Assembly: GCF_029892045.1 (NCBI RefSeq)
Contig: NZ_CP120367.1
Span: 372,001-436,000, forward strand
Direction of reading: 5' to 3'
DNA: 64,000 bases
Origin: Sinorhizobium numidicum
Lineage (GTDB): Bacteria > Pseudomonadota > Alphaproteobacteria > Rhizobiales > Rhizobiaceae
Shown here: one piece after another, positions 33,499 through 59,734 of the stretch
Layout: each line of letters starts with the position of its first letter
Position numbering within the stretch: the stretch's first letter is position 1
Notes under the pieces: generated by a model
Seen by the model: only the letters and a program-made list of their open reading frames with translations
What the model was told of the DNA's origin: nothing
Databases searched by the model: none
Program-made: the position numbers and the translations under genes

Positions 33499-33524
33499 CA
33501 GTGCCCGCCATATAGCGGGCACTG
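33499..33524. repeat. 10-bp perfect inverted repeat in the leader of the 33218-33496 gene
   Basis: CAGTGCCCGC (33499-33508) and GCGGGCACTG (33515-33524) are perfectly complementary around CATATA. There is no U-tract. Lying within about 30 bases of the likely start codon of the minus-strand gene, it could mask initiation or act as an operator. Confidence 0.5.
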
Positions 33525-33609
33525 CTGCGTCGGTTGGGGGACATAGGTGCCGCCCCGGGTGGAGCGACGCATGTTAATTCATGAGATGCTAAAATGTTCC
33601 GGATGCATC

Positions 33610-45104: not shown

Positions 45105-46100
45105 ATGCTGAGTTCTTCACTGCTTCCCGTGTTCGTGTTCCTTCTGGCATCGACATCAGTTGGCGGCGCGCTGCTTGCTGTCTTCTATCCACGAGCTGCC
45201 AAAGCCAGCCCCTACCGGCAAAGGTTCGAGCGCGTCGCAGCGCGCACCGAAAGCAAGCCGAAGAGTGATGAGGAGGGGCGTGACCGCCGTCGTTCGGTGG
45301 AAAAGACGCTGCGCGAGATAGAAGACAAGCAAAAGGCAAATACCCGGCAGGGGAGCAAGCCGCGGCTGAGCGTTAGGCTCCGTCAGGCCGGCCTCGGCTG
45401 GTCGCTCCGGACTTACTGTCTCGCTTGCGCAGGCGCCGGGTTGGCAACCTACGCCGTTACGCTGCTTCTGGGGCTTGGAACGTTCGCCACGCTAGGCTTT
45501 GCCATCGCGGGCGCATTGCTTCTGCCGTATATCTATGTGAACGCGAAGCGCAAGGCACGCTTCAAGCGCTTCGGCGCCGAGTTTCCGAACGCGGTCGATG
45601 TGATCGTACGAGGGCTCAAGGCAGGTTTGCCGATGACGGATTGCCTGAGGGTGATTGCGGCGGAAGCGCAAGAGCCGGTCAAAGGCGAGTTCGTCACCAT
45701 TGCTCAGGACCAGACGCTGGGCATTCCGGTCGACGAGGCCGTGCAGCGCATGTGTGAACGTATACCGCTGCCGGAGGCAAATTTCTTCGCCATCGTTATC
45801 GCAATTCAAAGCCGCACCGGTGGCAGCCTCGCCGAAGCGCTTGGAAATCTGTCGAAGGTGCTCCGGGAGCGCAAGAAAATGGCGGGCAAGATCAAGGCCA
45901 TGAGCGCGGAGGCGAAGTCCTCCGCTGGCATCATCGGCGCTTTGCCGTTCTTTGTCGCCGGTGCCGTGTACCTCACGAGCCCCGATTACATTGCGCTTCT
46001 CTTCACGACGCTGATCGGAAAGATCGTTCTTGGCGGCTGCGCCCTATGGATGAGCATCGGCACGTTCATCATGCGCAAAATGATCAACTTCGATTTCTGA
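45105..46100 (+). CDS. tadB: Flp pilus assembly protein TadB
   Basis: A 331-residue inner-membrane platform protein (PF00482 type): N-terminal membrane helix, a charged stretch (SKPKSDEEGRDRRRSVEKT), two helices, the FPNAVDVIVRGLKAGLPMTD block, AIQSRTGGSLAEALGNLSKV and two C-terminal helices. It follows cpaF by 65 bases and precedes tadC by eight. Confidence 0.92.
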   Translation: MLSSSLLPVFVFLLASTSVGGALLAVFYPRAAKASPYRQRFERVAARTESKPKSDEEGRDRRRSVEKTLREIEDKQKANTRQGSKPRLSVRLRQAGLGWSLRTYCLACAGAGLATYAVTLLLGLGTFATLGFAIAGALLLPYIYVNAKRKARFKRFGAEFPNAVDVIVRGLKAGLPMTDCLRVIAAEAQEPVKGEFVTIAQDQTLGIPVDEAVQRMCERIPLPEANFFAIVIAIQSRTGGSLAEALGNLSKVLRERKKMAGKIKAMSAEAKSSAGIIGALPFFVAGAVYLTSPDYIALLFTTLIGKIVLGGCALWMSIGTFIMRKMINFDF

Positions 46101-46108
46101 GAAACAAC

Positions 46109-47080
46109 ATGAACCTCGGCGCCTACATTCCTGATGCGGATCAGCTTTCAGCCATGATGGCCGGCTTTGCCGTCTTTTCCGCCGTCGTTGCCGTTTCTTG
46201 GCCCTACATCTTCCGCAACACGCTGGCGGAGCGCATGGCCAAGGTGGAGACCGAGCGCGAGCGCATTCGCCAGCGCGAGCGCAGCCGACTCAATGCAGAG
46301 AAGCGCAACGTATCGCTCCGCGTCGAGCCCAAGCGTCTGTTCCAGGCGATCGTGGATCGCTTCAACCTCGCCAAGCAGGCCGAGGACGGCGAAATCATCC
46401 ACAAATTGCAGATGGCCGGCTATCGCGGCCAAGCACCCGTGACGAGCTTTCTCGCGGTGCGCCTGATAGCTCCCCTTGTGATCTTCGTCGCCTGTCTGGT
46501 CTATATTCTGCTCGTTGTCAGGCCGGAGGCGCCGTTGTTGGGCGTAACGGCAATTGCAGCCGCGCTTGGTTCGCTCGGATATTTTGCACCGGCGATATTC
46601 GTCAGGAACAGAATCACGAAGCGCCAGAAGGCGATCCGCCGCTCGTGGCCGGAGGCGCTGGACCTTCTGTTGATCACCGTCGAGGCCGGCATGGGCATTG
46701 AAAGTGCCTTCCGTAAGGTGGGCGAGGAAATTGGTGCACAATCGCCGGAAATCGCGGAGGAAATGCTGCTGACGACGGCGGAGCTTTCCTATCTCCAGGA
46801 CCGACGCCAGGCCTACGAAAACCTGGGACGCAGGACTGGCGTCGAGGGTGTTCGCGCGGTCGTTACCAGCCTCATTCAGGCAGAGAAATATGGCACGCCT
46901 CTCGGCCAGGCGCTCCGCGTAATGGCGCAAGAGAACCGCGATATGCGCATGAGCGAGGCGGAGAAGAAGGCAGCTGGCCTCCCACCCAAGCTGACCGTAC
47001 CGATGATCCTGTTCTTCCTGCCCGTCCTCTTCGCGGTGATCATAACGCCCGCGGCTATTCAGATCGCGGGCGTTCAATAA
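46109..47080 (+). CDS. tadC: Flp pilus assembly protein TadC
   Basis: A 323-residue paralogue of TadB: membrane helix near the N-terminus, charged stretch RIRQRERSRLNAEKRNVSL, helices, SWPEALDLLLITVEAGMGIE, SLIQAEKYGTPLGQALRVMA and a final hydrophobic MILFFLPVLFAVIITPAAI. The ATG at 46109 (MNLGAYIPDADQ) is preferred over one 21 codons upstream inside tadB. Last recognisable gene of the Tad locus; no TadD gene follows. Confidence 0.92.
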   Translation: MNLGAYIPDADQLSAMMAGFAVFSAVVAVSWPYIFRNTLAERMAKVETERERIRQRERSRLNAEKRNVSLRVEPKRLFQAIVDRFNLAKQAEDGEIIHKLQMAGYRGQAPVTSFLAVRLIAPLVIFVACLVYILLVVRPEAPLLGVTAIAAALGSLGYFAPAIFVRNRITKRQKAIRRSWPEALDLLLITVEAGMGIESAFRKVGEEIGAQSPEIAEEMLLTTAELSYLQDRRQAYENLGRRTGVEGVRAVVTSLIQAEKYGTPLGQALRVMAQENRDMRMSEAEKKAAGLPPKLTVPMILFFLPVLFAVIITPAAIQIAGVQ

Positions 47081-47252
47081 GCTGGCGCGGTGCGCGGGCC
47101 GCGCGTGGATTTCTAACACGCGGCGCCGCAAACTTAAAAGGCGCGAATGCGAGCCCTGACAGGATCAGCCCCTCGACGCCTTGTCGCTGCGCAAAAGCGG
47201 ACTCTCGCAGCAGCCCGTCCAAATTGGTCTTGACATAAATACGCTCGCACAT
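47055..47252 (-). CDS. Possible small hypothetical protein (65 aa)
   Basis: Begins MCERIYVKTNLDGLLRESAF with a strong GGAGGAGG six bases upstream. It overlaps the 3' end of tadC by 26 bases on the opposite strand, and its tail is Arg/Pro-rich, which weakens the call. No known motif. Confidence 0.35.
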   Translation of the reverse strand: MCERIYVKTNLDGLLRESAFAQRQGVEGLILSGLAFAPFKFAAPRVRNPRAARAPRQLIERPRSE

Positions 47253-47464
47253 TGGCCCTCCTCCAGCTTGGCAAGGGTATCGCCGTCGCCAGGAAACCAA
47301 GCAGTTCAAGCGGATTTTCCGGGGTTCTTTGGTCGCGACTTACCGCGAGAAGATCTGTTCTCTTCATCGTTATCGGACCGCCGCTGACGCCGAGCGTCGC
47401 TGCCGGTACATAGCCCTAAGGGTATATGGCGGCATATTAGGTTGTGCTGTAGAATGCCAGGCAG
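47081..47464. other. Intergenic region before the left copy of the duplication
   Basis: About 380 bases between tadC and the duplicated segment. Apart from the doubtful minus-strand gene (47055-47252) nothing is assignable. The promoter for the Tat-peptide gene should lie within its last 100 bases; no clear -35/-10 pair. Confidence 0.3.
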
Positions 47465-47478
47465 CAGAGGAGGATTCT

Positions 47479-47721
47479 ATGGATCAGGAAAAATCAGAGC
47501 TGCAGCCCTCGCGGAGCGATGAGGATCGGCGTGAGTTTCTGAAAAGTTGCGGGCGTTTCGCAGCGGTCACTCCTCCCTTGGTGACGATGCTGCTCTCAAC
47601 CAGCCTTACATCCGATGCAATCGCAAAATCCGGCAGTGGCAAGGGCGGTAAGGGTGGGAACGCTGGAAAGGGCGGAAAGGGTGGAAATAACGGAAAAGGG
47701 AAAGCGAAAACTCGCGTTTAA
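47479..47721 (+). CDS. Twin-arginine-signal peptide with Gly/Lys-rich mature part (copy 1)
   Basis: An 80-residue product. Residues 1-16 are acidic and polar; RREFLK at 17-22 is a twin-arginine-like motif; residues about 28-43 form a hydrophobic core (AAVTPPLVTMLLSTSL); cleavage is likely after DAIA (residue 49). The remainder is a 31-residue cationic tail built from GKGGKGGN units ending GKGKAKTRV. The RREFLK-x-CGRFAAVTPP pattern recalls a family of tiny proteins in alphaproteobacteria, from memory. GAGGAGG lies six bases before the ATG. An identical second copy is at 55777-56019. No modifying enzyme or exporter is adjacent; function unknown. Confidence 0.85.
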   Translation: MDQEKSELQPSRSDEDRREFLKSCGRFAAVTPPLVTMLLSTSLTSDAIAKSGSGKGGKGGNAGKGGKGGNNGKGKAKTRV

Positions 47722-47732
47722 GCATAACAAAG

Positions 47733-47744
47733 CGCTCTAGAGCG
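47733..47744. repeat. CGCTCTAGAGCG palindrome after the Tat-peptide gene
   Basis: A perfect 12-base palindrome 11 bases after the stop, also present in the right copy (56031-56042). Position suggests an mRNA 3' element or a protein-binding site; the rho-independent terminator lies about 85 bases further on. Confidence 0.5.
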
Positions 47745-47827
47745 TTCGCATAAGGAACATTTTAGCATTTTGTGAATTGATAAACGTTCGCCCACCGGGG
47801 GCAACCCTGTCCGCCAAAATATACGCA

Positions 47828-47860
47828 AGCAGTGTCCGCAACCCCGCGGGCACTGCTTTT
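47828..47860 (+). terminator. Rho-independent terminator of the Tat-peptide gene (left copy)
   Basis: AGCAGTGTCCGC (47828-47839) pairs with GCGGGCACTGCT (47846-47857), one position as a G-U wobble, followed by TTT. Loop AACCCC. Confidence 0.85.
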
Positions 47861-47862
47861 CA

Positions 47863-48189
47863 TCTGTTCGCAAGGTACTCCATCGCTCCTCGCGGCTTGG
47901 TCCGGCCTCGCGGATCGCCTCAAGGGCCTTGCCTGCTGACCCTGGCGACTCGCATCAAATAAGCGACTCGTGCTTAGAAACGAGCTTGCGGTCGGGACCC
48001 TGCTTGCCGGCGGCAAGATTGGATTAGCTGAGTTCAACGAGAAACGGGAGGGCGTCTTCCTGTGAGCGACCGCCCTCCCGAATGTTCTGCAAGTTAGCGA
48101 TCGGCGTCGCTTTTGCCGGATTTACTTACCAGGCACGCGTCACCACCGCGGTAACCAGGCCCTTCTATTACCACGTGGGGCCATCGCCG
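47863..48189. other. Intergenic region with a 10-bp hairpin
   Basis: No gene can be supported. CGGGAGGGCG (48045-48054) and CGCCCTCCCG (48071-48080) form a perfect stem around a 16-base loop. It could be a terminator for the convergent Asp-rich gene, but lacks a U-tract. Confidence 0.4.
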
Positions 48190-48438
48190 TTAGTCATCAT
48201 CATCATCATCGTGATCATCATGATCATCACGATCATCGTCGTCATCGTCGCGATCATCATCGTCGCGATCATTATCGCGGTCAGGGTCGCGGTCGCGGTC
48301 ACGGTCGCCATCGCGGTCACTGCGACTGTCATCACGTTGGACATCGGCTTTGGCAATATCTAGCGTGATTGGGGCAGCGAATGTCGCCATCAACGCTAGC
48401 GCCGTCGAAAGAGTAAGAATGCGTCTTAGTCTATCCAT
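48190..48438 (-). CDS. Exported Asp/Arg-rich low-complexity protein
   Basis: An 82-residue product from ATG 48438, with GGGAGGG nine bases upstream. The N-terminus MDRLRRILTLSTALALMATF is a signal peptide with a likely cut after AKA. The mature part is almost only Asp and Arg with a few His (DRDGDRDRDRDPDRDNDRDD, then DDDDDDRDDHDDHDDDDDD). Such Asp repeats could bind Ca2+ or other cations outside the cell. The coding DNA is a GAT/GAC/CGC triplet array prone to length change. The frame extends upstream of the chosen start without a ribosome site. Confidence 0.7.
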   Translation of the reverse strand: MDRLRRILTLSTALALMATFAAPITLDIAKADVQRDDSRSDRDGDRDRDRDPDRDNDRDDDDRDDDDDDRDDHDDHDDDDDD

Positions 48439-49102
48439 TACGCCCTCCCTGCTTTGTCGTGGTCTCCCACGATCGTCAGATTGGCGGACTTCCGTCCGCC
48501 GCGAGTACTTATGAAGACTAAAGCAAAAATTCACCCGACATATTGCTTGCGGTATCACAAGTCATTCGGGCTAGAGCTTGAATTACATCATTCGCTCTTT
48601 GTCTCTCCATTTTATCTTTATGCGCGCGTAGCACTGACGCGCACATATACGGGCAAATCTCGTTTGAACATTGCCAACAATTGCCCGCTTGCGATGGAGA
48701 TATTCGCAACAACTAATTTACCACCAAGACGCTGAAGGCAAAATAGCCCAACAGAGCTATACGCGCTTCTAAATCGTTCAAAACGTACTTCCAAACGCGA
48801 AATCCTCCTGAATTATAGGGCGGAGACGCCGATGGTTGAAACCAAAGGGAGAAACGGAAGGAGGAAAAGGATACGAAGCTGTCTCAAATCTTTGATTTTG
48901 TTTAGCGGCGTCTCTGGTCGAGTGTGGAGCTTTAATGTTTTGCCCGCGGACCAGCATATATAGGTGAGTGTGGCCAAAATCGCTTGTTTTCACTATATAT
49001 AGTGTCATTCCTTGACGCTCGGCGAGCTTCGCCGGTTAATGATCTAAACCACGCATCGTTGAACACCAGCACGACCGGCCGCGCGCCGGCAGAGGAGGAT
49101 TT
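48439..49102. other. AT-richer intergenic region with palindrome
   Basis: About 660 bases with lower GC than the surroundings. Short frames on both strands lack ribosome sites. A perfect palindrome lies at 48991-49004. Nothing else is assignable; the base composition suggests imported DNA. Confidence 0.4.
48991..49004. repeat. CACTATATATAGTG palindrome
   Basis: A perfect 14-base palindrome about 100 bases upstream of the small gene at 49103, possibly an operator or part of a promoter. TATATA also occurs about 35 bases to the left. Confidence 0.5.
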
Positions 49103-49291
49103 TTGCGCAAATCCGAGTGCACTGCAGCCAGATTAGCTGCGTTCGAAGACGGGATCCGAGCGGATCTGCAAGTGCCCGACGGCGAAGATTGGCACGCCTA
49201 TCTTCCGGAAAACCGCCGAGGCGACCGCATCTTTGAGCAGTGGCAGAAACTAGCTGCCGTGACTCGTAAAGTCGAAGGGGCCTGTCAATGA
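49103..49291 (+). CDS. Small hypothetical protein of mobile-element type (62 aa)
   Basis: TTG start with GAGGAGG seven bases upstream. The product begins MRKSECTAARLAAFEDGIRA and contains WHAYLPENRRGDRIFEQWQK; it is helical and well-formed, with no named family. Its stop overlaps the next ATG (ATGA), so it leads a short operon of phage- or island-type genes. Confidence 0.6.
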   Translation: MRKSECTAARLAAFEDGIRADLQVPDGEDWHAYLPENRRGDRIFEQWQKLAAVTRKVEGACQ

Positions 49292-49404
49292 AGGTGGCAG
49301 ACCTGCGACGCCTTCACAATCCTGCTTCACCGCAAGGTTTCCGAGCGATAGCCGCGTTCAGCCTTGAGGTGACGCCAGAAATCAAATCTTCGATCTGCAG
49401 TTGA
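49288..49404 (+). CDS. Very small hypothetical protein (38 aa), possibly a truncated gene
   Basis: Begins MKVADLRRLHNPASPQGFRA and ends KSSICS before TGA. ATG overlaps the upstream stop. It stops just before the primase/helicase-like C-terminus, in another frame, so it may be the 5' remnant of a larger gene that suffered a deletion. Confidence 0.4.
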   Translation: MKVADLRRLHNPASPQGFRAIAAFSLEVTPEIKSSICS

Positions 49405-49988
49405 TCCAAGCCCAGGACGGCCGCCCCATTATGAGCGCGGAATGGGCAACTGGCGTCGACGATCTATTCGAGGACTTCGACGATCGCATCCGCGGCATGA
49501 GAAAGACAATCGACCCACAGTACCGGCCAATCTTGAATCGCTTCGGCGAAAATGCGGCCAGGTTGGCTTTAATTGTTGCAGTGGGGTGTGATCCGAAGGA
49601 GCCAATTATTACCTCGGAGATTCAGACATGGGCCAACGCGGTTGCCGAGCATAGTCTGCAGGTCATCCTGCGGGGCGCCAACGACAATATCGCTGACAAT
49701 GACCGGGCGGCGGAATATCTGCGGGTTCGTCAGCAGGTTACGCGGCGAGGACAGTCGGGCATAACGACGCGCGACATCGTCAAGAACTTGAGGGGCTCGA
49801 TCGATAAGCGCCGCCTGGAGGACATTTTAGCCATGCTGCGGCAGGCGAGGGAAGTCCACCTCGCAAAGCTCACGATGGATAGTGGTCAGGCCAGGGTGCG
49901 GTTTTGGTCGGCAGAATCGCTGCCCGACGGAGCCACCATCATCCCGCACAGAGTGGGTGAGGGGCTGGGGGAAAGGCCCGCGGCGTGA
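49401..49988 (+). pseudogene. C-terminal part of a DUF3987-type phage/island primase-helicase-like protein
   Basis: About 195 residues from TTG 49401 (or 185 from ATG 49431). The block LNRFGENAARLALIVAVGCD and ITSEIQTWANAVAEHSLQVI resembles the C-terminal part of large DUF3987 proteins found in prophages and integrative elements; then a winged-helix-like region (SGITTRDIVKNLRGSIDKRR). The ATPase/primase N-terminus is missing. It is probably a remnant, although the C-terminal piece is open throughout. Family assignment is from recall of the pattern. Confidence 0.55.
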
Positions 49989-50084
49989 CCGGGGAAAGAC
50001 TAGGTGGAAAGTCGGCGGAGGCGAAAAACTACCGACAAATCTCCCCCGGCCTTACCTCACCCTTCCCCCCAGTCTTTCACCCAC
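49953..50084 (+). repeat. 24-base imperfect inverted repeat downstream of the primase-like remnant
   Basis: Arm 49953-49976 (GTGGGTGAGGGGCTGGGGGA and four more bases) can pair with 50061-50084. Three of the four differences are G-U wobbles if the plus strand is transcribed and one is an A-C mismatch. The 84-base loop contains GGAAAGACTAGG-type repeats. Possibly a structured RNA or an end of an element. Confidence 0.4.
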
Positions 50085-50139
50085 CCTTTCATCTAAAAAA
50101 TACAATAAAAACAATAATACATATAAGAGCGAGTAGTAC

Positions 50140-50391
50140 TTGAGTGGGGATATACCTCCGAGACGTCTTTTGAGACCCCAAAACACACATCGATCACACG
50201 CGCGCGAAGGAGGACAGCATCACGATCGAACTCACCGAAACGAAAAACGGAAAAAGGACCAAGCACGCCCTACGTCGCAAGTCGACCAGCTCGACGAAAT
50301 ATCAGGTGACGAACAACTCGCGATGGTGTGGTGCGAAACACACAGGACCTGGGAATGGCATTGGATCGAACGCACCGAGTTGGGCAATTAA
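50140..50391 (+). CDS. Doubtful hypothetical protein, perhaps frameshifted
   Basis: Opens with TTG and no ribosome site; the C-terminal half (DQLDEISGDEQLAMVWCETH, WEWHWIERTELGN) looks coding. A perfect GAAGGAGG at about 50206 precedes ATCACGATCGAACTCACC in a different frame, as if an ATG had become ATC and a frameshift followed. Probably a decayed small gene. Confidence 0.25.
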   Translation: MSGDIPPRRLLRPQNTHRSHAREGGQHHDRTHRNEKRKKDQARPTSQVDQLDEISGDEQLAMVWCETHRTWEWHWIERTELGN

Positions 50392-50405
50392 CAGAGGAGA
50401 ACACC

Positions 50406-50708
50406 ATGACCAAAGCAGAGGCATTTGCAGCAAAACACGACATCGCAGCTACGTCCGAAGACGTGACGCGGATACGCCGAGCGCTAAGCAGGTTTTACGA
50501 CGCTGTCGAGGCGATCGATCCGGTTCGCCGCGGCTGGATCCAGCTTCATGATCGCCCGGCTATCATGACAGCCTTCGAAAGACACCAGCACGCCGGCACA
50601 CGGCGCTGCAATGGCATGGCGGAGATGCCACAGCATTGGCCGACTACCTACCGGGCTTCGGTTTGCTACTATCTCGCGCCTTTGCTTGCAGACGTGGTGA
50701 ATTCATGA
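50406..50708 (+). CDS. Hypothetical protein (100 aa) of the accessory segment
   Basis: ATG at 50406 with GAGGAGA seven bases upstream. The product begins MTKAEAFAAKHDIAATSEDV and is helical, with ALSRFYDAVEAIDPVRRGWI and TYRASVCYYLAPLLADVVNS. No family recognised. Composition and neighbours suggest an island or phage gene. Confidence 0.55.
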   Translation: MTKAEAFAAKHDIAATSEDVTRIRRALSRFYDAVEAIDPVRRGWIQLHDRPAIMTAFERHQHAGTRRCNGMAEMPQHWPTTYRASVCYYLAPLLADVVNS

Positions 50709-50751
50709 ACCTTTTTGGGCAGAGCAGGGCTCGCCGAGCCACAGCGGCACG

Positions 50752-50780
50752 AAAAAACCCCGCAGCGGTTGCCACGGGGT
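50752..50780 (-). terminator. Rho-independent terminator of the DUF1236-type gene
   Basis: On the minus strand ACCCCG (75-80 region) pairs with CGGGGT across a 12-base loop, followed by six T. It lies 23 bases after the stop of the minus-strand gene at 50803. Confidence 0.8.
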
Positions 50781-50802
50781 CTTCCTTTACCATCGGACCC
50801 GA

Positions 50803-51213
50803 TCAGTTAATCACCTGAACGACCGTGCGGGATTTAGGCTCAACAATCACCCGCTGCTCATTGACGACTGCGAATGCGTAATTCGGAGATTCAGGAATCG
50901 GCGTGAGCACCACTGTCTCTGGAATCGGTTTCCCGACGACAACTGGCTGCTGAACTACCACAGACGGAGGTGCCGGTTGCTGCTGAACGTAAGTGACCAC
51001 CTCGGGAGGCGGCGGTGCAAGTGCCCCGCCAAGTGCGCCACCGACCACAGCGCCAACTCCAGCGCCAACCGGGCCGCCGAGAATGGCGCCGGTCGCGGCA
51101 CCGCCGACTATACCGGTAGCAGTGCCGCCCTTGCCTTCGTTGGTATTGTTCTGAGCGACCGCGGAGCCGGCCAGTAGTGCGGCCGTTGCCGCGATGAGTA
51201 GAAGCTTCTTCAT
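50803..51213 (-). CDS. Exported DUF1236-domain protein with glycine-zipper region
   Basis: A 136-residue protein: signal peptide MKKLLLIAATAALLAGSAVA, a glycine-zipper stretch (GIVGGAATGAILGGPVGAGV and GAVVGGALGGAL) that could insert in a membrane, a Pro/Val/Gln-rich linker, and a C-terminal DUF1236 domain (IPETVVLTPIPESPNYAFAV then VEPKSRTVVQVIN). Such proteins are common in rhizobia, role unknown. AAGGATGAG precedes the ATG, and a terminator follows. Confidence 0.85.
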   Translation of the reverse strand: MKKLLLIAATAALLAGSAVAQNNTNEGKGGTATGIVGGAATGAILGGPVGAGVGAVVGGALGGALAPPPPEVVTYVQQQPAPPSVVVQQPVVVGKPIPETVVLTPIPESPNYAFAVVNEQRVIVEPKSRTVVQVIN

Positions 51214-51304
51214 AGTCTCATCCTTTCGTTGGCTTCGTCACCTAACGAAAGGGAAACGAAACGGTTCCATTCATCGGACCTTAGTCTGAGATGAACAAAG
51301 ACAA

Positions 51305-51999
51305 ATGACCCATACAGCCACGCGACGTTGCATCGCGTTATTTCAGCACCGTCCGAAAAACCCACAAGGGAAGGAGAAATACTTAATTCGTACATTCCGC
51401 GACGGTAGGTTGGTTGAATGGGGATCAACCAAGCAGGGGCACAGGCTTCGGCCAGTGGACCGCGTCAAAGCTGGCGGATGCAGCAATTTATCGCACCGCA
51501 GCCCTGACCGCTACCTGAAAACAAAAGCGACGACGCCTTCGCCGATGCGCGCGTCGAGCTTGCCGAGGAACATGTCCGACAGACCAGTCCTCCCGCCCAT
51601 GTATGATCCGCAAAGCGACGTCGAAGCAAATCGCGAGCTGCTTTGCAAATTGGGCGTCGATGGCTCCGTACCTTTCGACGAGCTGCCAACGTCAGCAACG
51701 AAAGGCGATGACGCCGTCGCGAAGGGGGCGGGTTTCCTAGGTGGAATTTCACGCTCGAGCGGGAATGCGTCGAGCAGGCCTGGGAAGCGCCGGAAGTTCG
51801 ACGAGGCGAGGCCGCGTCGGTCGTTGAAGAAGTCGCTGCTCGCGGCACGTTGAAGTCGATCGGCTTACGCCTTGGCTACAGCGAAGCTTACGCAGATCGA
51901 GCCGGCAAGGCAGCGATCATCGACGCCGCCAAAGCGTTAGCGGCCGCGAACGACAATAAAAAAGTTGAGCCCGCCGTGCCCGTTCGTGGCGCAGTATAG
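51305..51999 (+). pseudogene. Decayed gene of mobile-element type
   Basis: Coding-like pieces occur in different frames on the same strand: HRPKNPQGKEKYLIRTFRDG near 51350, DDAFADARVELAEEHVRQ near 51530, and an open frame without ATG from 51712 to 51999 encoding PRWNFTLERECVEQAW, VVEEVAARGTLKSIGLRLGY and AAIIDAAKALAAANDNKK. The last piece is well preserved and probably the end of a small phage-type protein. No intact start with a ribosome site exists. Confidence 0.4.
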
Positions 52000-52123
52000 C
52001 GTATACGGTTGTAGAGATCAGAAATTTAACCCGGCCTCAGAGCCGGGTCTGTTTTTTCGGTGCGCAGCTTCATTTGGCACCGAGCCCGCGTCAGCGATGA
52101 ACGCGGGACCTCATCACCCAACC

Positions 52124-52312
52124 CTAATACCGCCACCTCGGTGGCCGTTTGGCATTATGCTGCAGCTCGGAAGCTGTGGCGAACCGGCCGAATAGCCGAC
52201 GAAGTCGGATCTCTTCTTTCTCACCCAATTGATGTTGTTGACAAAATTCGCGGACGTTCCAAACCTCGGTAACGGTGTGCTTCGAAAGCTTTTCGGCTTC
52301 GACATGCTCCAT
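52124..52312 (-). CDS. Small conserved-type hypothetical protein (62 aa)
   Basis: ATG at 52312 with GGAGGAG six bases upstream. Product begins MEHVEAEKLSKHTVTEVWNV, then REFCQQHQLGEKEEIRLRRL and FATASELQHNAKRPPRWR. The pattern EFC-x4-LGEKEE-x6-LFG-x-FATA-EL resembles short rhizobial proteins I have seen, unnamed. An alternative minus-strand frame overlaps but is poorer. Confidence 0.6.
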   Translation of the reverse strand: MEHVEAEKLSKHTVTEVWNVREFCQQHQLGEKEEIRLRRLFGRFATASELQHNAKRPPRWRY

Positions 52313-52613
52313 CTTGCTCCTCCCAGGCAGTGGACGGTCAGACTATGCTACTAAAGTCTAATTAAGCAAGAAATAAACTAAGTATTACTTATTGCCTGAC
52401 GCCGTCTCCTCCGGCGACGGCGATCAAGCGGCAGGTCGAGCGGCTACGGCGGCTCCCTGCCGCTTCTTGTTTTTGCCCCGTCGATAAACCGGGAAGCTAA
52501 GCTGATTGGGCGTTATAAGGTGTCGTGCCGACGGCATGAAAGTGGCAGCATCGGCAACCATACACATGGACGCTGGGAGCGTGACAGGCAATCCTGATGG
52601 CCGCTCCGGTTCT

Positions 52614-52799
52614 CTAGCGGCTTCCGCTCGTGTCCGCCGTCTGCGGGATGTAGACAGCCGTGTCAACTCCTTCCTCCAAGAGTGCGCCGCCGATCGCCAA
52701 GTATGCGAAGATGGCGCATATCGCGAGGAGCAGAACGCTGACGGGGAATGCCGTGGACGCTCGCCTTTCGGGAGTACTGTAGTCATCGCGTCCGAACAT
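52614..52799 (-). CDS. Small single-span membrane protein (61 aa)
   Basis: ATG at 52799 with GGGAGAG six bases upstream. Product begins MFGRDDYSTPERRASTAFPV, has one helix (VSVLLLAICAIFAYLAIGGA) and an acidic to polar tail ending TADTSGSR. Unnamed. Confidence 0.6.
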   Translation of the reverse strand: MFGRDDYSTPERRASTAFPVSVLLLAICAIFAYLAIGGALLEEGVDTAVYIPQTADTSGSR

Positions 52800-52921
52800 A
52801 TTTTTCTCTCCCATGATCTTTCATGGAGAACGTAATTGTGAGCAAGGGAGTTCCTTGCCGGACTGCTCGAGGGTGACCCAGCTCCCCTGCGATGCGGGGT
52901 TCTGCTTTCGGGCCTCTTTTG

Positions 52922-53098
52922 TTATTGAGCAGGTTCGGTCGTTGCAGGTGGCGTGGTTGGAGTTACAGCCGGAGCCGGCCCTGTTGTTGTTGCCGGAGGC
53001 GTTTCGGCCCTTTGTTCTTCGGACTTTGGCACCAGATATACCAGTGCGAAGATAAGGACGATGACTGCGACGACGCCGATGATCACGAGTCTAATCAT
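52922..53098 (-). CDS. Small membrane-anchored Pro/Thr-rich protein (58 aa)
   Basis: Too short for many gene finders. Starts MIRLVIIGVVAVIVLIFALV, one membrane helix, then YLVPKSEEQRAE and a Pro/Thr/Ala-rich tail (TPPATTTGPAPAVTPTTPPA). AAGGAG lies about eight bases before the ATG. The layout resembles short inner-membrane proteins of rhizobia. Function unknown. Confidence 0.65.
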   Translation of the reverse strand: MIRLVIIGVVAVIVLIFALVYLVPKSEEQRAETPPATTTGPAPAVTPTTPPATTEPAQ

Positions 53099-53266
53099 GC
53101 GCTTCTGCTCCTTCTAGTATCGGTCTCCTTCAATGTATCACGAGTACGCAGGCGCAAGCCCGGCAGGTGGAGGCGGCGCAACGATCGACCGTCGCAGCGA
53201 CAAGGCAACCGCCTACCGCAAGCTCTATGTTACTGCCGATGGAATTGTCTCCGCGAAGCGCAACTG

Positions 53267-53383
53267 ATGACCTCGCCTCTATGTCGCTTTTGCCTTGAGG
53301 TTGAGGACGTCACCGCAGCAGATATAGTTGACCACATAGAGCCGCGAAGCGGCTTCCGTCTCGGTGGCGGCGGCCGATGCTAG
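53267..53383 (+). pseudogene. HNH endonuclease fragment of phage type
   Basis: ATG overlaps a stop (TGATG). The frame encodes MTSPLCRFCLEVEDVTAADI then VDHIEPRSG before running into a Gly stretch and a stop. C-x2-C followed by VDHI-x-P is the start of the HNH endonuclease module usually found next to phage terminase genes. The HNH His/Asn part downstream is missing. The 44-codon frame just upstream (53133-53267, ending VTADGIVSAKRN) has no ribosome site and may be part of the same ruined region. Confidence 0.6.
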
Positions 53384-53569
53384 AGGCGGTGCTACAGAAC
53401 GCCGGCGGCGCGATACCCCTGTCGGAATGGCTGCGACACCGTGCGGCGATACATGCGCCTCGCCAGAGAGGCAGAAACAGCCCAGGAAGCTCAAGGAACG
53501 CGATCGGCGGCATAAAGTAGGCGACCTGCTGTCTCGGTCAAATTCTTAAGCTGGAGTACCCTGACTGAT

Positions 53570-53863
53570 TTAGGGGGCGTCAGGCTGCACCTCCCGCAAG
53601 GTGTCGAATGAGGCTAAGGACAGTTGAGCCCATAAGTCCTGGAGTGCTTCAGCGGCTTCCAACAAGTCACCGCCAACTTTCGCGGTTTTCATTTCTGCGA
53701 CTGTTCGATCGACTGCCGAGGCTGACCGCTCAGCCGTCTGGTAAAGCGATTGAGCCTGCTGAATTGTCAAATCGGGCGCGCCGATAATCAGTGGAAGCTG
53801 CCGAGCGAACATGCTCGCAACCTCGTTTTGCTCCCGCAGCGTCGTTGCCCAGTCAACAGCCAT
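53570..53863 (-). CDS. Hypothetical protein (97 aa), helical
   Basis: ATG 53863 with GAGGTA upstream. Product MAVDWATTLREQNEVASMFA, then LTIQQAQSLYQTAERSASAV and GDLLEAAEALQDLWAQL; soluble, acidic and strongly helical, with no named family. Stands alone in the accessory segment. Confidence 0.5.
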   Translation of the reverse strand: MAVDWATTLREQNEVASMFARQLPLIIGAPDLTIQQAQSLYQTAERSASAVDRTVAEMKTAKVGGDLLEAAEALQDLWAQLSLASFDTLREVQPDAP

Positions 53864-54150
53864 GAAATACCTCTGGTTGTGCGTAGTCGCATTTCAATGT
53901 GAGGAATGCCTAAATTAGGGGAAAGTTTGAGTCAAGGAATGGGCGTGGACGTAGGACGGAATGTCGCGGCATCAGTCCTTTAAGAGGATCAGGGAGAAGG
54001 CGGATGATGCGGCGCCGTATTCTTTGGACGAATGACGATTTTTGGGGAAGTGAATGGAAGGCGACCACATAAACGAACTATTCACAGGAAGAACTGTACT
54101 CGAGAAGATGCGCCTAATGATGGGGTCCGAAATGCTCAGGCAGGCGGACG

Positions 54151-54318
54151 CTATGCACTCCCCTCCGTTTCGCTGCCCTCATCCAAATCATGGACAGGCA
54201 GAAAACCGTATCCCTCCAGCCACTCGCGAATGATGAGGCGGATTAGCGCGTCTCGCGTCATCTCAAGTTCTTCGCAGGCGGCAGCAAACGCCAACTCAAC
54301 ATCATGGTCGAAGATCAT
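54151..54318 (-). CDS. Small ribbon-helix-helix-like protein (55 aa)
   Basis: ATG at 54318 with AGGGA about six bases upstream. The product MIFDHDVELAFAAACEELEM continues TRDALIRLIIREWLEGYGFL and ends in an acidic tail. A short strand followed by two helices with alternating hydrophobics (ALIRLIIREWL) resembles RHH DNA-binding or ParD-like antitoxins. No toxin is adjacent. It is shorter than usual gene-finding cut-offs. Confidence 0.6.
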   Translation of the reverse strand: MIFDHDVELAFAAACEELEMTRDALIRLIIREWLEGYGFLPVHDLDEGSETEGSA

Positions 54319-54422
54319 TTGATTCCCTGCGCACTACAACCGGGAGCTTAAAGGGTCTCACAGCGCACGTTGCAGTCAAGGCTTAGGGCAGTCGCCCAAA
54401 AGGGTTACTGACATGGTGGCAC

Positions 54423-54448
54423 GAAAAAGCCCCGCAAGATGGCGGGGC
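54423..54448 (-). terminator. Rho-independent terminator on the minus strand
   Basis: GCCCCGC and GCGGGGC pair around CATCTT, followed on the minus strand by TTTTT. No minus-strand gene is recognised just upstream (54450-54630); it may belong to an unidentified small RNA. A further 10-bp hairpin (54452-54461 with 54473-54482) lies directly beside it. Confidence 0.75.
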
Positions 54449-54451
54449 AAG

Positions 54452-54482
54452 TCCGCATCCAGTTGCCTTCGTTGGATGCGGA
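54452..54482. ncRNA. Possible small minus-strand transcript: hairpin next to a terminator
   Basis: TCCGCATCCA (54452-54461) pairs perfectly with TGGATGCGGA (54473-54482). The hairpin immediately precedes the strong minus-strand terminator at 54423-54448, an arrangement typical of small RNAs. There is no coding frame. Promoter not identified; speculative. Confidence 0.25.
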
Positions 54483-54627
54483 GACGTAGCCCAGAGAGAG
54501 CTACGGAGAGACGTTATCTACGGTTTGATCAGAGAGGAAGGCCTGGTTCCGTGATTCCGGTACGCCTCTTCAAAAAATTACCAGCAGGGTAAACGCTTTT
54601 CAGTCGTTCTCTCAAGCACGGCAGGGT

Positions 54628-54957
54628 ATGTCGGCAATGCCCGAGATCAGCAAAAATAGAAGCAGGGCTGCGATCGCCGTAGCTGCGGCCACAAGCCAGT
54701 TCAAGCGCGATCTACAGAGCGCAGCCGAACGCCAACCCCGCCAGACGTGGTTTCCCCCCTTCGTCAATCACGAATACGCCTTTGAATTTGAGATCGGCCA
54801 GCGCGTTGTTCTGCTATGCACTAACGAGTTGGCCATCATTGTGGGCCGCACGCAGCTGTTAGACTGCGAGGATGAGTACGTGATCGAAATTCTTGGAGCA
54901 GACTGCGCCCCACTCGGCGGCGTGCACGCGCACCAGATGATCGATGCGACACTCTGA
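54628..54957 (+). CDS. Hypothetical protein (109 aa)
   Basis: Starts MSAMPEISKNRSRAAIAVAA (ATG 54628 or the Met three codons later). The C-terminal half, FEFEIGQRVVLLCTNELAII and DEYVIEILGADCAPLGGVHA, has alternating strands and could be a small beta-barrel. AGGG upstream of the start. No family recognised. Confidence 0.5.
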   Translation: MSAMPEISKNRSRAAIAVAAATSQFKRDLQSAAERQPRQTWFPPFVNHEYAFEFEIGQRVVLLCTNELAIIVGRTQLLDCEDEYVIEILGADCAPLGGVHAHQMIDATL

Positions 54958-55211
54958 TGAGGCGCCCGGAGCGACGGCGAGGGCGCGTTATGACCATCTC
55001 GGAGCGATATTTTGAAACTGCTCGAGTGCTGGTACTGGACCGAGGAAGAGGCTGCATTTTTTCTCGCGTCTTTGACTCAACGCCGCGCCGCCCCGTGAAG
55101 GCGGCGACCATTTGGGGCAGCGATGGACACGCGCGCTGTAAGGTATTTCAAATGGCTTCTGTTCTAGCAGCAGCAAGGGCGCTGCTGCTAGCGGCGAGTA
55201 CGTGGTACTGA
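54957..55211 (+). CDS. Doubtful hypothetical protein (84 aa)
   Basis: The ATG overlaps the stop of the preceding gene (TGATG), which suggests coupling. MTISERYFETARVLVLDRGR looks reasonable, but the C-terminus becomes a run of Ala/Leu codons over repetitive DNA. An overlapping frame from 55012 (LKLLECWYWTEEEAAFFLAS) is equally plausible. Confidence 0.3.
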   Translation: MRRPERRRGRVMTISERYFETARVLVLDRGRGCIFSRVFDSTPRRPVKAATIWGSDGHARCKVFQMASVLAAARALLLAASTWY

Positions 55212-55227
55212 CGTACCGACAAATACG

Positions 55228-55386
55228 ATGCTGCGCGGCCATATACAGCTACACTGGAACACCTGCGTCGCCGCGCTGATGGCGGTACGGGCCACCCATC
55301 CAACCTGGCCATGCAAGCGCTGCAACAACACCCGCGGCGAGCGTGACTGGCTGAGTTACGCGTCCTGGCTGCGCAACGAGTTTTAG
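55228..55386 (+). CDS. Small Cys/Trp-containing protein (52 aa)
   Basis: Starts MLRGHIQLHWNTCVAALMAV and contains THPTWPCKRCNNTRGERDWL, so there is one CxxC that could be half of a zinc site, and five Trp. It ends SYASWLRNEF. No clear ribosome site. Too short for common gene finders; composition looks genuine. Function unknown. Confidence 0.45.
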   Translation: MLRGHIQLHWNTCVAALMAVRATHPTWPCKRCNNTRGERDWLSYASWLRNEF

Positions 55387-55539
55387 CCAAGTTGGGTTTC
55401 TAGTCACCTATGGCCGGCGCGGTTACCACCTGCGCCAACACCAGCAGCGCGCCGGCCGGTTGCTTGTCGACTAAACGAAAAAAAAGCCGCAGCGCAACCG
55501 ACCCGTCACGCTATTGGATGGCAGCCGCACACCGGAACA

Positions 55540-55571
55540 AAAAAAGGACCGCCTCAAGGTGCGAGGCGGTC
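55540..55571 (-). terminator. Rho-independent terminator on the minus strand
   Basis: GACCGCCTC (55547-55555) and GAGGCGGTC (55563-55571) pair perfectly around a seven-base loop; on the minus strand the stem is followed by CC and six to seven T. No minus-strand gene ends here, so it may terminate an unrecognised transcript. Confidence 0.75.
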
Positions 55572-55587
55572 AAAGCGGAAGCAACTT

Positions 55588-55635
55588 CGGAGAGCGCTCC
55601 AAAGTCGAGGTAGCTTGGCTTTGGAGCGCTCTCCG
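55588..55635. repeat. 17-bp perfect inverted repeat
   Basis: CGGAGAGCGCTCCAAAG (55588-55604) and CTTTGGAGCGCTCTCCG (55619-55635) are perfectly complementary across 14 bases. No U-tract. It lies about 140 bases upstream of the right copy of the Tat-peptide gene. It could be a recombination or binding site, a strong mRNA hairpin, or the relic end of a mobile element. Confidence 0.75.
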
Positions 55636-55776
55636 CCTCACCCACAAAGGGAGGGGAAGATGAGGCGATTAAAATCTATCATCAGACCGCGCCTCGCGAA
55701 ATTATACGTCGGGTGTTGCCAACTTAGACGTAGGTATCGGGTTAGCTTGTGCCCTAGGCAACCAGAGGAGGATTCT

Positions 55777-56019
55777 ATGGATCAGGAAAAATCAGAGCTG
55801 CAGCCCTCGCGGAGCGATGAGGATCGGCGTGAGTTTCTGAAAAGTTGCGGGCGTTTCGCAGCGGTCACTCCTCCCTTGGTGACGATGCTGCTCTCAACCA
55901 GCCTTACATCCGATGCAATCGCAAAATCCGGCAGTGGCAAGGGCGGTAAGGGTGGGAACGCTGGAAAGGGCGGAAAGGGTGGAAATAACGGAAAAGGGAA
56001 AGCGAAAACTCGCGTTTAA
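55777..56019 (+). CDS. Twin-arginine-signal peptide with Gly/Lys-rich mature part (copy 2)
   Basis: Identical in sequence to the gene at 47479-47721 (80 residues, RREFLK motif, hydrophobic core, cleavage after DAIA, cationic GKGGKGGN tail). It has the same GAGGAGG ribosome site and the same 3' hairpins, but a different upstream region with the 17-bp inverted repeat. The complete lack of coding differences points to recent duplication or gene conversion. Confidence 0.85.
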   Translation: MDQEKSELQPSRSDEDRREFLKSCGRFAAVTPPLVTMLLSTSLTSDAIAKSGSGKGGKGGNAGKGGKGGNNGKGKAKTRV

Positions 56020-56129
56020 GCATAGCAAAGCGCTCTAGAGCGTTCGCATAAGGAACATTTTAGCATTTTGTGAATTGATAAACGTTCGCCCACCCACCGG
56101 GGGCAACCCTGTCCCCCAAAATATACGCA

Positions 56130-56164
56130 AGCAGTGTCCGCAACCCCGCGGGCACTGCTTTTTC
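56130..56164 (+). terminator. Rho-independent terminator of the Tat-peptide gene (right copy)
   Basis: AGCAGTGTCCGC (56130-56141) pairs with GCGGGCACTGCT (56148-56159), followed by five T. One more T than the left copy. Confidence 0.85.
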
Positions 56165-56166
56165 AT

Positions 56167-56553
56167 TTCCCCACAAGGTCAGCCTGCGTCGTGTATGGGG
56201 GCCATCTTCAAGTTATGTCGGGAGGCCGGAAGATAGGCTGGTAAAACCCCGATCAGAGCGATTGCAGAACCGCAACCGACGCATAAAGGGTGCAAAGCGG
56301 TCCTCACCTCGTGCACCCGCGTGGCATCGCCGTCTCCTGTCGCAACGAAACTTCCGCGCCAGCCATGCGATTTCGCCCAGCACGCCACCAGCAATGCGGG
56401 ATGGCCTGCATGATCGGCGTTTTTCGATCTTCAAGCTTCGGCGGTTTCGGTGGCATCGCGGCCTGTATGCCGATCGAGATCGGCCTTGCCACAAGCGTGG
56501 TCGTGATTTCCGGCTGTTGAAGCGCTGAAACTTATCGTCGAAAAGGAGCCGTT
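56167..56553. other. Intergenic region between the duplication and the che operon
   Basis: About 390 bases. A plus-strand frame (56290-56520) encodes a hydrophobic Gly-rich end (GGFGGIAACMPIEIGLATSV) but lacks a ribosome site; minus-strand frames are Arg-rich and look like noise. No terminator for cheB recognised. Confidence 0.3.
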
Positions 56554-57594
56554 CTATTCGGCCCCTGCCAAGGCGACGATCTTCTCGGCTATGCTCTCGA
56601 GCGGCAATACGAAATCGATAAGACCTGCGCCAATCGCGGATTTCGGCATTCCGAAGACTATCGAACTTTCCTCATCCTGGGCGATCGCCTTTCCTCCTGC
56701 CTCACGCAGCAAACGAAGGCCTTCCGTTCCGTCATCGCCCATGCCCGTCAGAACGACGGCGAGGGACTCGCCCTTGAAGGCACGCCCAATCGAGCCGAAT
56801 AGGTATGATCCAGACGGCTTGAAACCGGCAACGGGCGCGTCATCAACCACGCGGATACGTGATCGGCCGGAGACACCGAGCTGGCGTCCATCCGGTGCGA
56901 GATAGACGGTGCCCGACCTCAAACGTTCGCCGTCCGCAGCGATCTTGACCTTCAGTGGCAGTGTTGCGTCAAGTGACTCGGCAACACCGTCGATGAACCC
57001 GTTGGACATGTGCTGAACGATAAGAATAGGGGCAGGAAAGGTGGCGGACACTTTCATCAAGATCGAGCGGATCGCCGCCGGGCCCCCGGTCGAAGCAGCA
57101 ATGCCGACAATGCCGATCGGGCTGTTGATGAGACCCGGCCCGCTATCGCTGGCGGGGCGAATAGCGTCTGCCTTCTTGCGCCACTGCCTGACGACCTTCA
57201 CCTGCGCCATGGCTTTAATGGTCGACAGGAACTTTTCCGTCGCCGCCTTCTCAAGGCGCCCGTGGACCGGGTGAGGCGCAGGAATGACGGCCAGGGCGCC
57301 GCCTTCCAGAGCTCGTGCGGATACGGCTCCGAGATCTGAACTCACCTCCCGTGACACCATCACGATAGGTACTGGCGCTGAAATCATGATTTCCCTGATT
57401 GTTTCGGCGCTGTCGTCCTCGCCGGGCTCCAGGTCCATGGTCAGGATATCGGGCGAAAGTTCCCGCGCCATCGTTACCGCTTCGGTACCGCATCTTGCCA
57501 CGCCCACGAGCTCCGTAGCCGGGTCGATACGAACTGCCTTTTCGACGAGCTCCTGAAAATCGATCCTGCATGTGACCAGAAGAACGCGAACCAT
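56554..57594 (-). CDS. cheB: Chemotaxis protein-glutamate methylesterase CheB with degenerate receiver domain
   Basis: A 346-residue CheB. The methylesterase triad is S168 (GIAASTGGPA), H195 (IVQHM) and D287 (TGMGDDG). The N-terminal receiver (1-115) keeps the phospho-acceptor-like D54 (LTMDLEP), but the acidic pair normally written DD near residue 9 is replaced by TC in VLLVTCRID, so Mg2+ binding and phosphorylation may be impaired. The start at 57594 has GAGGGAG; 25 codons upstream are not used. It lies seven bases after cheA. Confidence 0.9.
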   Translation of the reverse strand: MVRVLLVTCRIDFQELVEKAVRIDPATELVGVARCGTEAVTMARELSPDILTMDLEPGEDDSAETIREIMISAPVPIVMVSREVSSDLGAVSARALEGGALAVIPAPHPVHGRLEKAATEKFLSTIKAMAQVKVVRQWRKKADAIRPASDSGPGLINSPIGIVGIAASTGGPAAIRSILMKVSATFPAPILIVQHMSNGFIDGVAESLDATLPLKVKIAADGERLRSGTVYLAPDGRQLGVSGRSRIRVVDDAPVAGFKPSGSYLFGSIGRAFKGESLAVVLTGMGDDGTEGLRLLREAGGKAIAQDEESSIVFGMPKSAIGAGLIDFVLPLESIAEKIVALAGAE

Positions 57595-57601
57595 TGCTCC
57601 C

Positions 57602-59734
57602 TCAAGCGACCTGGCGAATGATTTCCAAAAACTGATGCGCATCAAACTGGTTTTTTGGCAGGTACGCACTGGCTCCTGCCTTTAAGCCGCGCACCTTGTC
57701 CTCCGGCGTTTCCCGCCCAGTGACAAGTATCACGGGCATGCTTGCAAGGCTGTCGGAGCCTCTGATCGCCTGCGTCAGTTCGAAACCGTCCATCCTCGGC
57801 ATATCGACATCAGCGACGACAATGTCGGCGCCATGATTCAAGAGGTACTTAAGCGCCTCGCCACCGTCTGCAGCCAATGCGACATCGTAGCCCGCCCCCT
57901 CGAGGATCAACTTCACCATCGTTCGGATATATTTGGAGTCGTCGACGACGAGCACTTTGCGCTGTTCAGCCTTGCCCGCGTGTCGGGGAAAGGGTTCCGG
58001 CTCTGCGCCGTGAGCCATGGCGGCCTCCGCCACGGCCGCGGCATTGAGAAGGAGCGCAATCCGGCCGTCAGGCAGGACCATGCCGCCGCTATAGCGGCGG
58101 ACTTTGGCGAGGCGTCGCCCCAGTGATCGCGCAAGAAGCTCCTGTTCGCCCGCGACTTTATCCACGATAACTGCCGTTTGAATTTCTCCTGCCCCAATAA
58201 CCACAGCCGGCACGACATCCATCGAAGGGCGGCGGCTAGCCGGCCGTAGTCCAAGCCAGCTGGCAAGGTCGATGTAGCGCATCGAACCCGTCGTCATGCT
58301 CCTGTCGGCCGATGCAGCAAGGTCTTGGGTGGAGACCCGGATCACGCGCTGAATAGAAGCGGTGTCAATCGCGAAAACATGTTCAGCGGCAACCACTTCC
58401 AAAGCGCGAACGGTTGCAAGCGTGAGAGGCAAGGTAAGTGTAAAGACAGCGCCTCCGCCTGGCACCTGCGCCACTTCGGCAGTACCACGCATTTCCTCGA
58501 CTGCGTTTCTGACGATATCGAGCCCCATGCCGCGACCGGACAGCCTGGTGACCGTGGTCGACGTGGAGACGCCCGGCTCAAAGACCCTTCGAAGAAGCTG
58601 CCCTTCGTCTTCGCATACTGATAACCCGGCCTCGTCGGCAAGTTTCCATAGGGATGCCGTATCCAATCCGCGGCCGTCATCCTCAACCAAGACCTGCACT
58701 CGATCGCCGGACACCGAGGCTGCGAGGACAATTCTTCCCTTTTCCCGCTTACCGGCGATCCGCCGTTCCTCGGGAGACTGGACGCCATGGGCAATGGCGT
58801 TTCGGACAAGGTGGCGCAGCGAATCCTGTAACCCCGCTAGGATAGAGCGGTCGATCTCGATCTCGCCACCCTTGATCACAAGCTCTGCTTGCTTGCCCGA
58901 TGCCGCCGCCATGTCCCTGACGATGCGGTCGAGCCCCTTGCAGGCTTCGGAAAAGGGCTGCGTGCGTGCACGCCGCACCTCCTGATCAAGCGCCGACACA
59001 GCGCTATGCATCAGCCTTCCGTCCTGGCGGAGCGACGCAGCAAGTTCGCGTAGCCCGCTTTCGATACTCGCGGCCTGAGCCGCCGATAGGTTTTTCGCTG
59101 CGCGCAGCCTCCTTGCTTGTTCTCTGAGAGAAGAAGCCTGTTCGGCGTGTCGCCGAACGACCGCATCACAAGCGAGCAATTCGCCGCTCCTGTACAATAG
59201 GATGTCGAGCCGTTCGGCGGACACCCGCATGGAACCATCCAGGTCAGTTGAGCGAACTGGTACCGGATCCACCGAGGAGGGAGGCGGCTTCGTGTCTTCC
59301 CCGCCGGAATTACCACCCGAAGCAATTGCCGCCTGAAGCTTGAGAAGTACGCCCTCGGCATGTGCCGGCGAGGGGATCTCGCCCTTCGAAAGGAGCCGGG
59401 CCGCAGCCGCGATCTCGTCCGTTGCCGCCAGCAGCAGGTCGAGCTTCTGTCTGTCGAGGACGAGCTCTTCCCTCGCGGCACGCGAGAGCACTTCTTCCAT
59501 CCAGTGGCAGATTGTTTCGATGCCGCGCACCTGAACGAGACCTGCGGCCCCTTTCAGGCTGTGCACTGTCCTTAAGATCTGTTCCTGTAGACTGCGCCTC
59601 TCGTCCGGCACCGTGGTCTCTTCGAGGGTGAGCAGTGTACGTTCGATCTCGGACGCTCGTTCGCTCACTTCTTGAGTGAACATTTCCAGCAGCTGACGGT
59701 CGAGTTCTTCAGGTTTCATCATCTCAATTGCCAT
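57602..59734 (-). CDS. cheA: Hybrid chemotaxis histidine kinase CheA with C-terminal receiver domain
   Basis: A 710-residue kinase: Hpt domain with the phosphorylated H58 ([11 protein letters not shown]), a linker, dimerisation helices, a HATPase domain ([46 protein letters not shown]), a CheW-like domain, and a receiver domain at about 592-710 ([20 protein letters not shown], phospho-Asp in [12 protein letters not shown], Lys in YLPKNQF). It therefore needs no separate CheY gene in the operon. It overlaps mcp by 11 bases. This layout occurs in alternative (non-flagellar) chemosensory systems. Confidence 0.92.

Follow-up and report, generated by a model that had tools for sequence, protein, structure and literature searches.

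Two identical orphan genes for a Tat-leader peptide in an accessory insertion of Sinorhizobium numidicum, probable substrates of a kinase/NTase pair encoded elsewhere in the genome

In the linear polyphosphorylated peptides (LPPs), according to PMC13381572, an HprK-like kinase phosphorylates Ser3 of a core that a signal-peptidase-like enzyme sets free, and the kinase is accompanied by an NTP transferase to which no action is assigned; the clusters often lie in capsule loci, and the system is described as restricted to Bacillota. PMC9266682 describes a related chemistry in lasso peptides, in which a kinase (PadeK for paeninodin, PsmK for pseudomycoidin) acts on a Ser of the peptide and is followed by an NTase homologue tied to hexose addition; for pseudomycoidin, PsmK is the phosphorylating enzyme and the hexose addition requires PsmN. 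Bufferins and other signal-peptide RiPPs (PMC12452194) have a precursor with a cleavable export signal that is thought to be modified before export.

The window analysed here, the whole 64-kb stretch at 372001-436000 of a 2.32-Mb replicon of S. numidicum (genome 6.72 Mb, 3 contigs), holds two direct repeats, each carrying a small peptide gene. We consider it probable that these repeats are two identical orphan precursor genes of a rhizobial family of Tat-exported, post-translationally modified peptides, the family's own kinase/NTase pair lying elsewhere in the genome. By analogy, this peptide family looks like an undescribed relative of the LPPs.

The Tat-leader peptide family

47465..47862, +, repeat copy 1 (RBS, gene and 3' noncoding part; repeat comparison)
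47479..47721, +, Tat-leader, Gly/Lys-tail peptide gene of copy 1, 80 aa
55763..56162, +, repeat copy 2 (repeat comparison)
55777..56019, +, Tat-leader peptide gene of copy 2, coding sequence identical to that of copy 1

Tat substrates carry a twin-arginine motif, a hydrophobic stretch and an A-x-A site. An earlier note on this DNA had described an 80-residue peptide with a twin-arginine signal and a cationic Gly/Lys tail, and both coding sequences agree with that description; in alignment A2 of the family (21 sequences) the Tat-signal features can be read as DRREFLK ... AIA. We take AIA, by the A-x-A rule, to be the cleavage site, and the mature part predicted to follow it has 31 residues, 13 of them Gly, and a net charge of +9. 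All 23 invariant columns of A2 lie between R17 and G52, that is, from the twin arginines to the Ser-Gly past the predicted cleavage site, and the tails vary in length and composition, with a GKGGKGGN-like type A (the window), a KGNNGWGNG-like type B and others, one of them His-rich. Such a constant signal joined to a variable mature part is the pattern of a leader/core precursor. The Ser two residues past AIA is present in all 120 homologues listed, many of which are closely related.

In a database of 5.8 billion proteins, 316 candidates were raised and 251 of them qualified as homologues (E up to 0.001); the 120 that are listed are mostly unnamed or called "hypothetical protein", apart from one YgcG-like membrane protein and one twin-arginine signal protein. 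Within the genus (one genome per species), the family is present in 21 of 33 genomes with one to seven matches each, fragments counted, and the repeated family is therefore not a product of chance. The genome of S. numidicum has four intact members, namely the two in the window and those at C2:2146417 and C2:650317, together with decayed pieces at C1:565668 and C2:1902507. A plasmid nucleotide search found 70 records, and 15 of the 20 matches listed carry no feature, in a gene table that is incomplete; tblastn of the whole peptide against plasmids gave no match, probably owing to the low-complexity filter.

Divergence of the leader was counted over 36 codons in eight pairs. Synonymous and nonsynonymous changes, respectively, numbered 10 and 1 between the window gene and the C2 paralogue, 8 and 0 between the window gene and locus L009, and 20.8 and 8.2 between the window gene and the cluster copy; the remaining pairs gave 0/0 (L009/L010), 9/4 (L011/L012), 4/4 (L011/L014), 3/1 (L016/L019) and 11/4 (L019/L034). 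In each pair having changes, dN was lower than dS.

The kinase/NTase pair and its described relatives

Comparison of ORFs around 17 peptide loci revealed two genes common to seven of them, which encode an HprK-like kinase and an NTP_transf_5 protein (here NTase; PF14907 above cutoff in 3/3). The kinase matches the HprK/P fold (PDB profile match 3tqf, E 1e-4), and its N-terminus appears to be a fused RRE-like domain of the lasso B1-type fold, an assignment that rests on the fold match, the PDB profile rows for RRE being no stronger than background P-loop rows. HprK_rel_A (TIGR04352) is the best NCBIfam match of the three kinases scanned (E 7e-20 to 7e-18), but at 64.7-71.3 bits against a cutoff of 200 these three fall outside that family as curated.

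Of the 33 genus genomes, the same 21 carry the kinase and the peptide, and none has the peptide without the kinase; the p-values for this co-occurrence ignore phylogeny. All 24 kinase places in the genus adjoin an NTase gene, mostly with a 10-14 bp overlap as called (the NTase of L075 is broken into two ORFs), and a family peptide lies within a few kb in 23 of them, the exception being G028. Five of the 24 kinases are of a second type, 30-33% identical, and the two of their peptides that were read have a different leader and likewise the Ser past AIA. Among 297 genomes sampled from the order, the peptide was found in 12, the kinase in 15 and both in 11, adjacent in 8 of these 11. A named collection of loci (79 kept of 119 confirmed, part of which repeat the genus set) extends to genera as far as Sphingobium and Novosphingobium; the kinase and NTase are in the fetched flank at 23 of the 79, the NTase alone at one more, and 56 have no kinase there. 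S. numidicum has one pair, from C2:647887 on a 3.77-Mb replicon. The earlier note's statement that no processing genes lie nearby holds for the insertion that contains the repeats, but the genome does encode the RRE-HprK kinase and NTP_transf_5 protein that accompany the family.

By the description in PMC13381572, LPP loci and these share several features: a precursor with a conserved N-terminus and a variable C-terminus (here in alignment A2), a Ser shortly behind the leader cleavage site, an RRE, an HprK-like kinase and an NTP transferase, core genes among which no macrocyclase is recognised, and polysaccharide genes beside some clusters. Here, dTDP-rhamnose genes (L120, L139, L141) or sugar transferase genes (L068, L069, L137) are found no more than about 6 kb from 6 of 12 sampled clusters; the three rml loci are all Bradyrhizobium and so are not independent, and the association is partial. 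With half of the sampled clusters near polysaccharide genes, as LPP clusters frequently sit in capsule loci, a surface role of the peptide products is plausible. There are differences as well. The RRE is a discrete protein in LPP and is fused to the kinase here; the LPP leader has a [Y/W]xxP motif, whereas the leader here is a Tat signal with no Y or W in its A2 consensus; the LPP hosts are Bacillota, whereas those here are Pseudomonadota with many dispersed orphan precursors; and LPP has a dedicated SpI peptidase and an MsbA exporter, which were not recognised among the neighbours scanned here. Specifically, no SpI-type peptidase or MsbA-like transporter was recognised among the shared neighbours (by eye) or in the best 25 of 62 families from 90 neighbour ORFs of 12 clusters, which include two ABC_membrane matches.

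Lasso peptides resemble the present family in their kinase and NTase steps and in the B1-type RRE fold, but their Ser is at the C-terminus (PMC9266682), whereas here it stands at the start behind a Tat leader; no macrolactam synthetase (lasso cyclase) or B2 protease was recognised beside the pair in the neighbours scanned (best 25 of 62 families in 12 clusters). Bufferins share the cleavable export signal and differ (PMC12452194) in their Sec signal, MNIO enzymes and mostly Cys chemistry, as against Tat and a kinase/NTase here. Among the matches listed, no title or abstract opening in the open-access literature described Tat-leader peptides together with an HprK kinase, and the passages searched in a small proteome study of S. 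meliloti (PMC10117765) do not mention the family.

The same observations bear on a rival explanation, that the product is an unmodified, exported cationic Gly/Lys peptide that binds polysaccharide, DNA or membranes, and that only the copy adjoining the kinase pair is its substrate. The strong positive charge of the mature part, the widely differing tails, and the lack of a flanking kinase at the window copies and at most loci of the named collection would suit such a peptide. Nevertheless, the orphan window gene retains both leader and Ser under selection, as the counts against the C2 paralogue indicate, and the genus holds no kinase-less genome with the peptide; we therefore regard this explanation as unlikely.

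The insertion and its repeats

46046-47080, +, tadC-like gene, left flank of the insertion
47133..56547, no strand, lineage-specific insertion holding both repeats (flank matches of relatives)
47503..48837, no strand, block that holds the peptide gene and the Asp-rich ORF convergent to it, shared at 92% with replicon C2 (from 2146432)
48190..48438, -, small ORF with a signal-like N-terminus and an Asp/Arg/His-rich tail, convergent to copy 1
49401..49988, +, phage DNA-primase C-terminal-like ORF (phrog_3022, profile positions 605-758 of 788)
50803..51213, -, DUF1236 protein with a Gly-zipper-like part (Pfam)
52892..53383, +, probable HNH-endonuclease-like remnant (phrog_2323, E 2e-10; ORF inferred by eye from a C..C...DHI stretch)
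56554-57669, -, cheB-like gene, right flank of the insertion

The tadC-like and cheB-like genes are separated by 39-295 bp in all 27 genus relatives having both (in the other 5 of 33 genomes no cheB match reached the threshold) and by 9480 bp here, and no relative compared has such an insertion at this junction. In the five relatives aligned, the longest left flank match ends at 47132 and the longest right one starts at 56548; hence both repeats lie inside the insertion, whereas the earlier note had them flank the accessory segment. The interior is a mosaic whose pieces have matches in each of the 33 genus genomes; the longest stretches with a match elsewhere in this genome are 47421-48837 (90%) and 51943-53221 (89%). 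The Asp/Arg/His-rich ORF has no Pfam match and is also kept beside the C2 paralogue; since the block containing it is shared with C2 at 92%, copying of the peptide gene and this ORF between the replicons predates formation or homogenisation of the 400-bp repeat.

The accessory character suggested earlier is thus borne out, but the phage-type remnants amount to few scraps, namely one primase-like and one HNH-like ORF of 33 and 56 bp common to two Rhizobium phages, the sole phage records to match the interior. Counting ORFs from 70 aa upwards, the insertion has 33; Pfam gave a single match among them (DUF1236) and PHROGs six family matches, one ORF being counted per family match. One of the six is to the primase, three are to HNH models that probably share one ORF, one is to a tape-measure model and one to an unknown family.

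Recombination between the copies, with loss of the segment, is possible in principle and need not be the function of the pair. A stronger version, in which the repeats are chiefly a site of recombination or integration, the peptide gene merely flanking a mobile element or segmental duplication whose 8.3-kb segment is lost or amplified, draws on the spacing of 8298 between direct copies that are 99% identical over 396 bases, and on the accessory mosaic with primase-like and HNH-like scraps between them. We find it rather improbable, given that both copies are internal to the insertion, that neither Pfam nor PHROGs detected an integrase or transposase family at E 0.001 in those 33 ORFs, and that, of 78 plasmid records matching the insertion, none covers 80%, or most, of it.

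The near-identity claimed for the repeats is real, and so is the restriction of their differences to a few noncoding positions: the initial 262 bp, comprising the RBS and complete coding sequence, are without any difference, and all four differences are in the 3' noncoding part. An assembly artefact is scarcely credible, because the flanks of the copies differ, the copies themselves differ at four sites, and the three-contig assembly has 100% completeness. The C2 paralogue has, by eye, the copy 2 state at all four sites, and the derived states therefore seem to be carried by copy 1. An unchanged coding part beside four changes in a 3' part that is shorter fits either recent duplication under selection or gene conversion, and we take the pair to be the product of one of these within the accessory insertion.

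47424..47437, +, ATATGGCGGCATAT, an inverted repeat preceding copy 1 (seen by reading the sequence)
47447..47455, +, element CTGTAGAAT, possible -10 region (pattern CTGTANWAT)
55742..55752, +, TTAGCTTGTGC, before copy 2, perhaps what is left of the upstream region of the family
56129..56160, +, stem of 13 pairs at the end of copy 2, intrinsic-terminator-like (terminator scan)

Of 30 distinct family genes, 9 have CTGTANWAT between -30 and -40, against a mean of 0.06 in 2000 mononucleotide shuffles, and the C2 paralogue has upstream a less symmetric sequence similar to ATATGGCGGCATAT. Sigma-70 consensus scans around both copies found no promoter, and Rfam over 46000-58000 at E up to 1 gave four matches, every one far under its gathering score. 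The terminator counterpart of copy 1 (about 47829-47859) has one T fewer and was unreported by the scan that found the copy 2 stem. The earlier view that the unit lacks its promoter holds only in part: no CTGTANWAT precedes copy 2, but this copy retains a short family-like piece, TTAGCTTGTGC, and its homology extends a few bases beyond the terminator, to about 56180. The statistics are mixed; with 1000 shuffles each, the two upstream regions compare at p 0.002 under permissive and 0.099 under stricter scoring, and that of copy 2 gives p 0.196 against the C1:565668 fragment and 0.212 against the C2 paralogue. A retrocopy origin, considered because the unit is bounded by RBS and terminator, is given little weight, since copy 2 apparently keeps diverged upstream homology. 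With CTGTANWAT and the inverted repeat at copy 1 and at most a remnant at copy 2, copy 1 may be the one that is active, and copy 2 may be silent or transcribed from another place.

A proposed pathway and its meaning

We propose that the window copies are trans substrates of the C2-encoded kinase/NTase pair. The RRE of the kinase would bind the Tat leader, and the kinase would phosphorylate the conserved Ser two residues past the predicted cleavage (AIA-x-S-G), a step suggested by the kinase chemistry of LPP and pseudomycoidin together with the conservation of that Ser; its predicted +2 position fits, but does not prove, equivalence to a phosphorylated Ser near the core start. The NTase would then extend the phosphate by a nucleotidyl or sugar moiety, the modified product would be exported by Tat, and an ordinary signal peptidase would remove the leader. 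The order of these steps, the modification and the fate of the product are all inferences.

The wider reading, for which we consider the case evenly balanced, is a distinct RiPP class of Pseudomonadota in which the Tat signal is the leader and one RRE-kinase/NTase pair modifies the Ser of many dispersed, fast-changing precursors in trans, so that every genome has a private collection of Tat-exported phospho- or glycophospho-peptides, direct repeats being one means of enlarging it. If this is true, a phosphopeptide RiPP logic called Bacillota-restricted in 2026 would reach symbiotic and soil alphaproteobacteria, a RiPP leader would double as a Tat signal in a one-enzyme, many-substrate system, and small genes mostly called hypothetical or without a listed feature would gain a hypothesis for their function.

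An acidic ORF facing the cationic peptide gene

A small ORF accompanies the gene for the 80-residue peptide with a Tat signal and a Gly/Lys tail, and the two genes are convergent in both replicon copies of the block (in the window and on replicon C2).

Window 48190-48438, minus strand: small ORF whose product looks exported and ends in a tail rich in Asp, Arg and His
Locus L044 7121-7507, minus strand: counterpart small ORF, likewise exported-looking and with such a tail

Of 52 residues counted for the small ORF, 32 are acidic; its product may be an acidic partner of the cationic peptide or may bind metal.

Recurring and phage-like stretches in the window

Two stretches within the insertion recur in many of the genus genomes compared. 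The first, about 190 bp of intergenic sequence (window 54420-54620; ~77-91% identity), occurs twice in some of these genomes and may be a dispersed repeat or an sRNA; an anti-hemB sRNA match overlapping it is weak (23.9 bits against 49.5). The minus strand of the second (window 54151-54412; ~69-85% identity), when read by eye, looks like a short ORF for a protein of ribbon-helix-helix type. Additionally, a 56-bp segment without an annotated feature (window 55406-55461) is 91% identical to Rhizobium phages RHph_Y3_1 and RHph_Y3_56_1. Elsewhere, window 33499-33606 (minus strand) matches the 3' noncoding part of the ~400-bp repeat unit at 72%, hinting at a reused 3' element.

Kinase neighbours and Bradyrhizobium family peptides

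At L067 (7337-11606), a cluster of the second kinase type adjoins genes of APS-kinase and ATP-sulfurylase type and one for a Na/H exchanger. Matches to such exchangers were found for 3 of the 90 neighbour ORFs, and two of these were placed, at L067 and L153.

In several Bradyrhizobium genomes, family peptides are paired, one shorter and one longer, ~2.2-3.5 kb apart and in constant order (L161, L163, L165, L166, L167, L170 and L171); the RRE-HprK-like kinase is absent from the flanks of these seven loci. At L163 and L171, H-NS-like and LuxR-type regulator-like ORFs, identified by eye, lie between or beside the paired peptides. At another Bradyrhizobium locus, L112, a His-rich tail (HEHHEHHHHHHHHD) replaces the Gly/Lys tail, suggesting that some family members bind metal.
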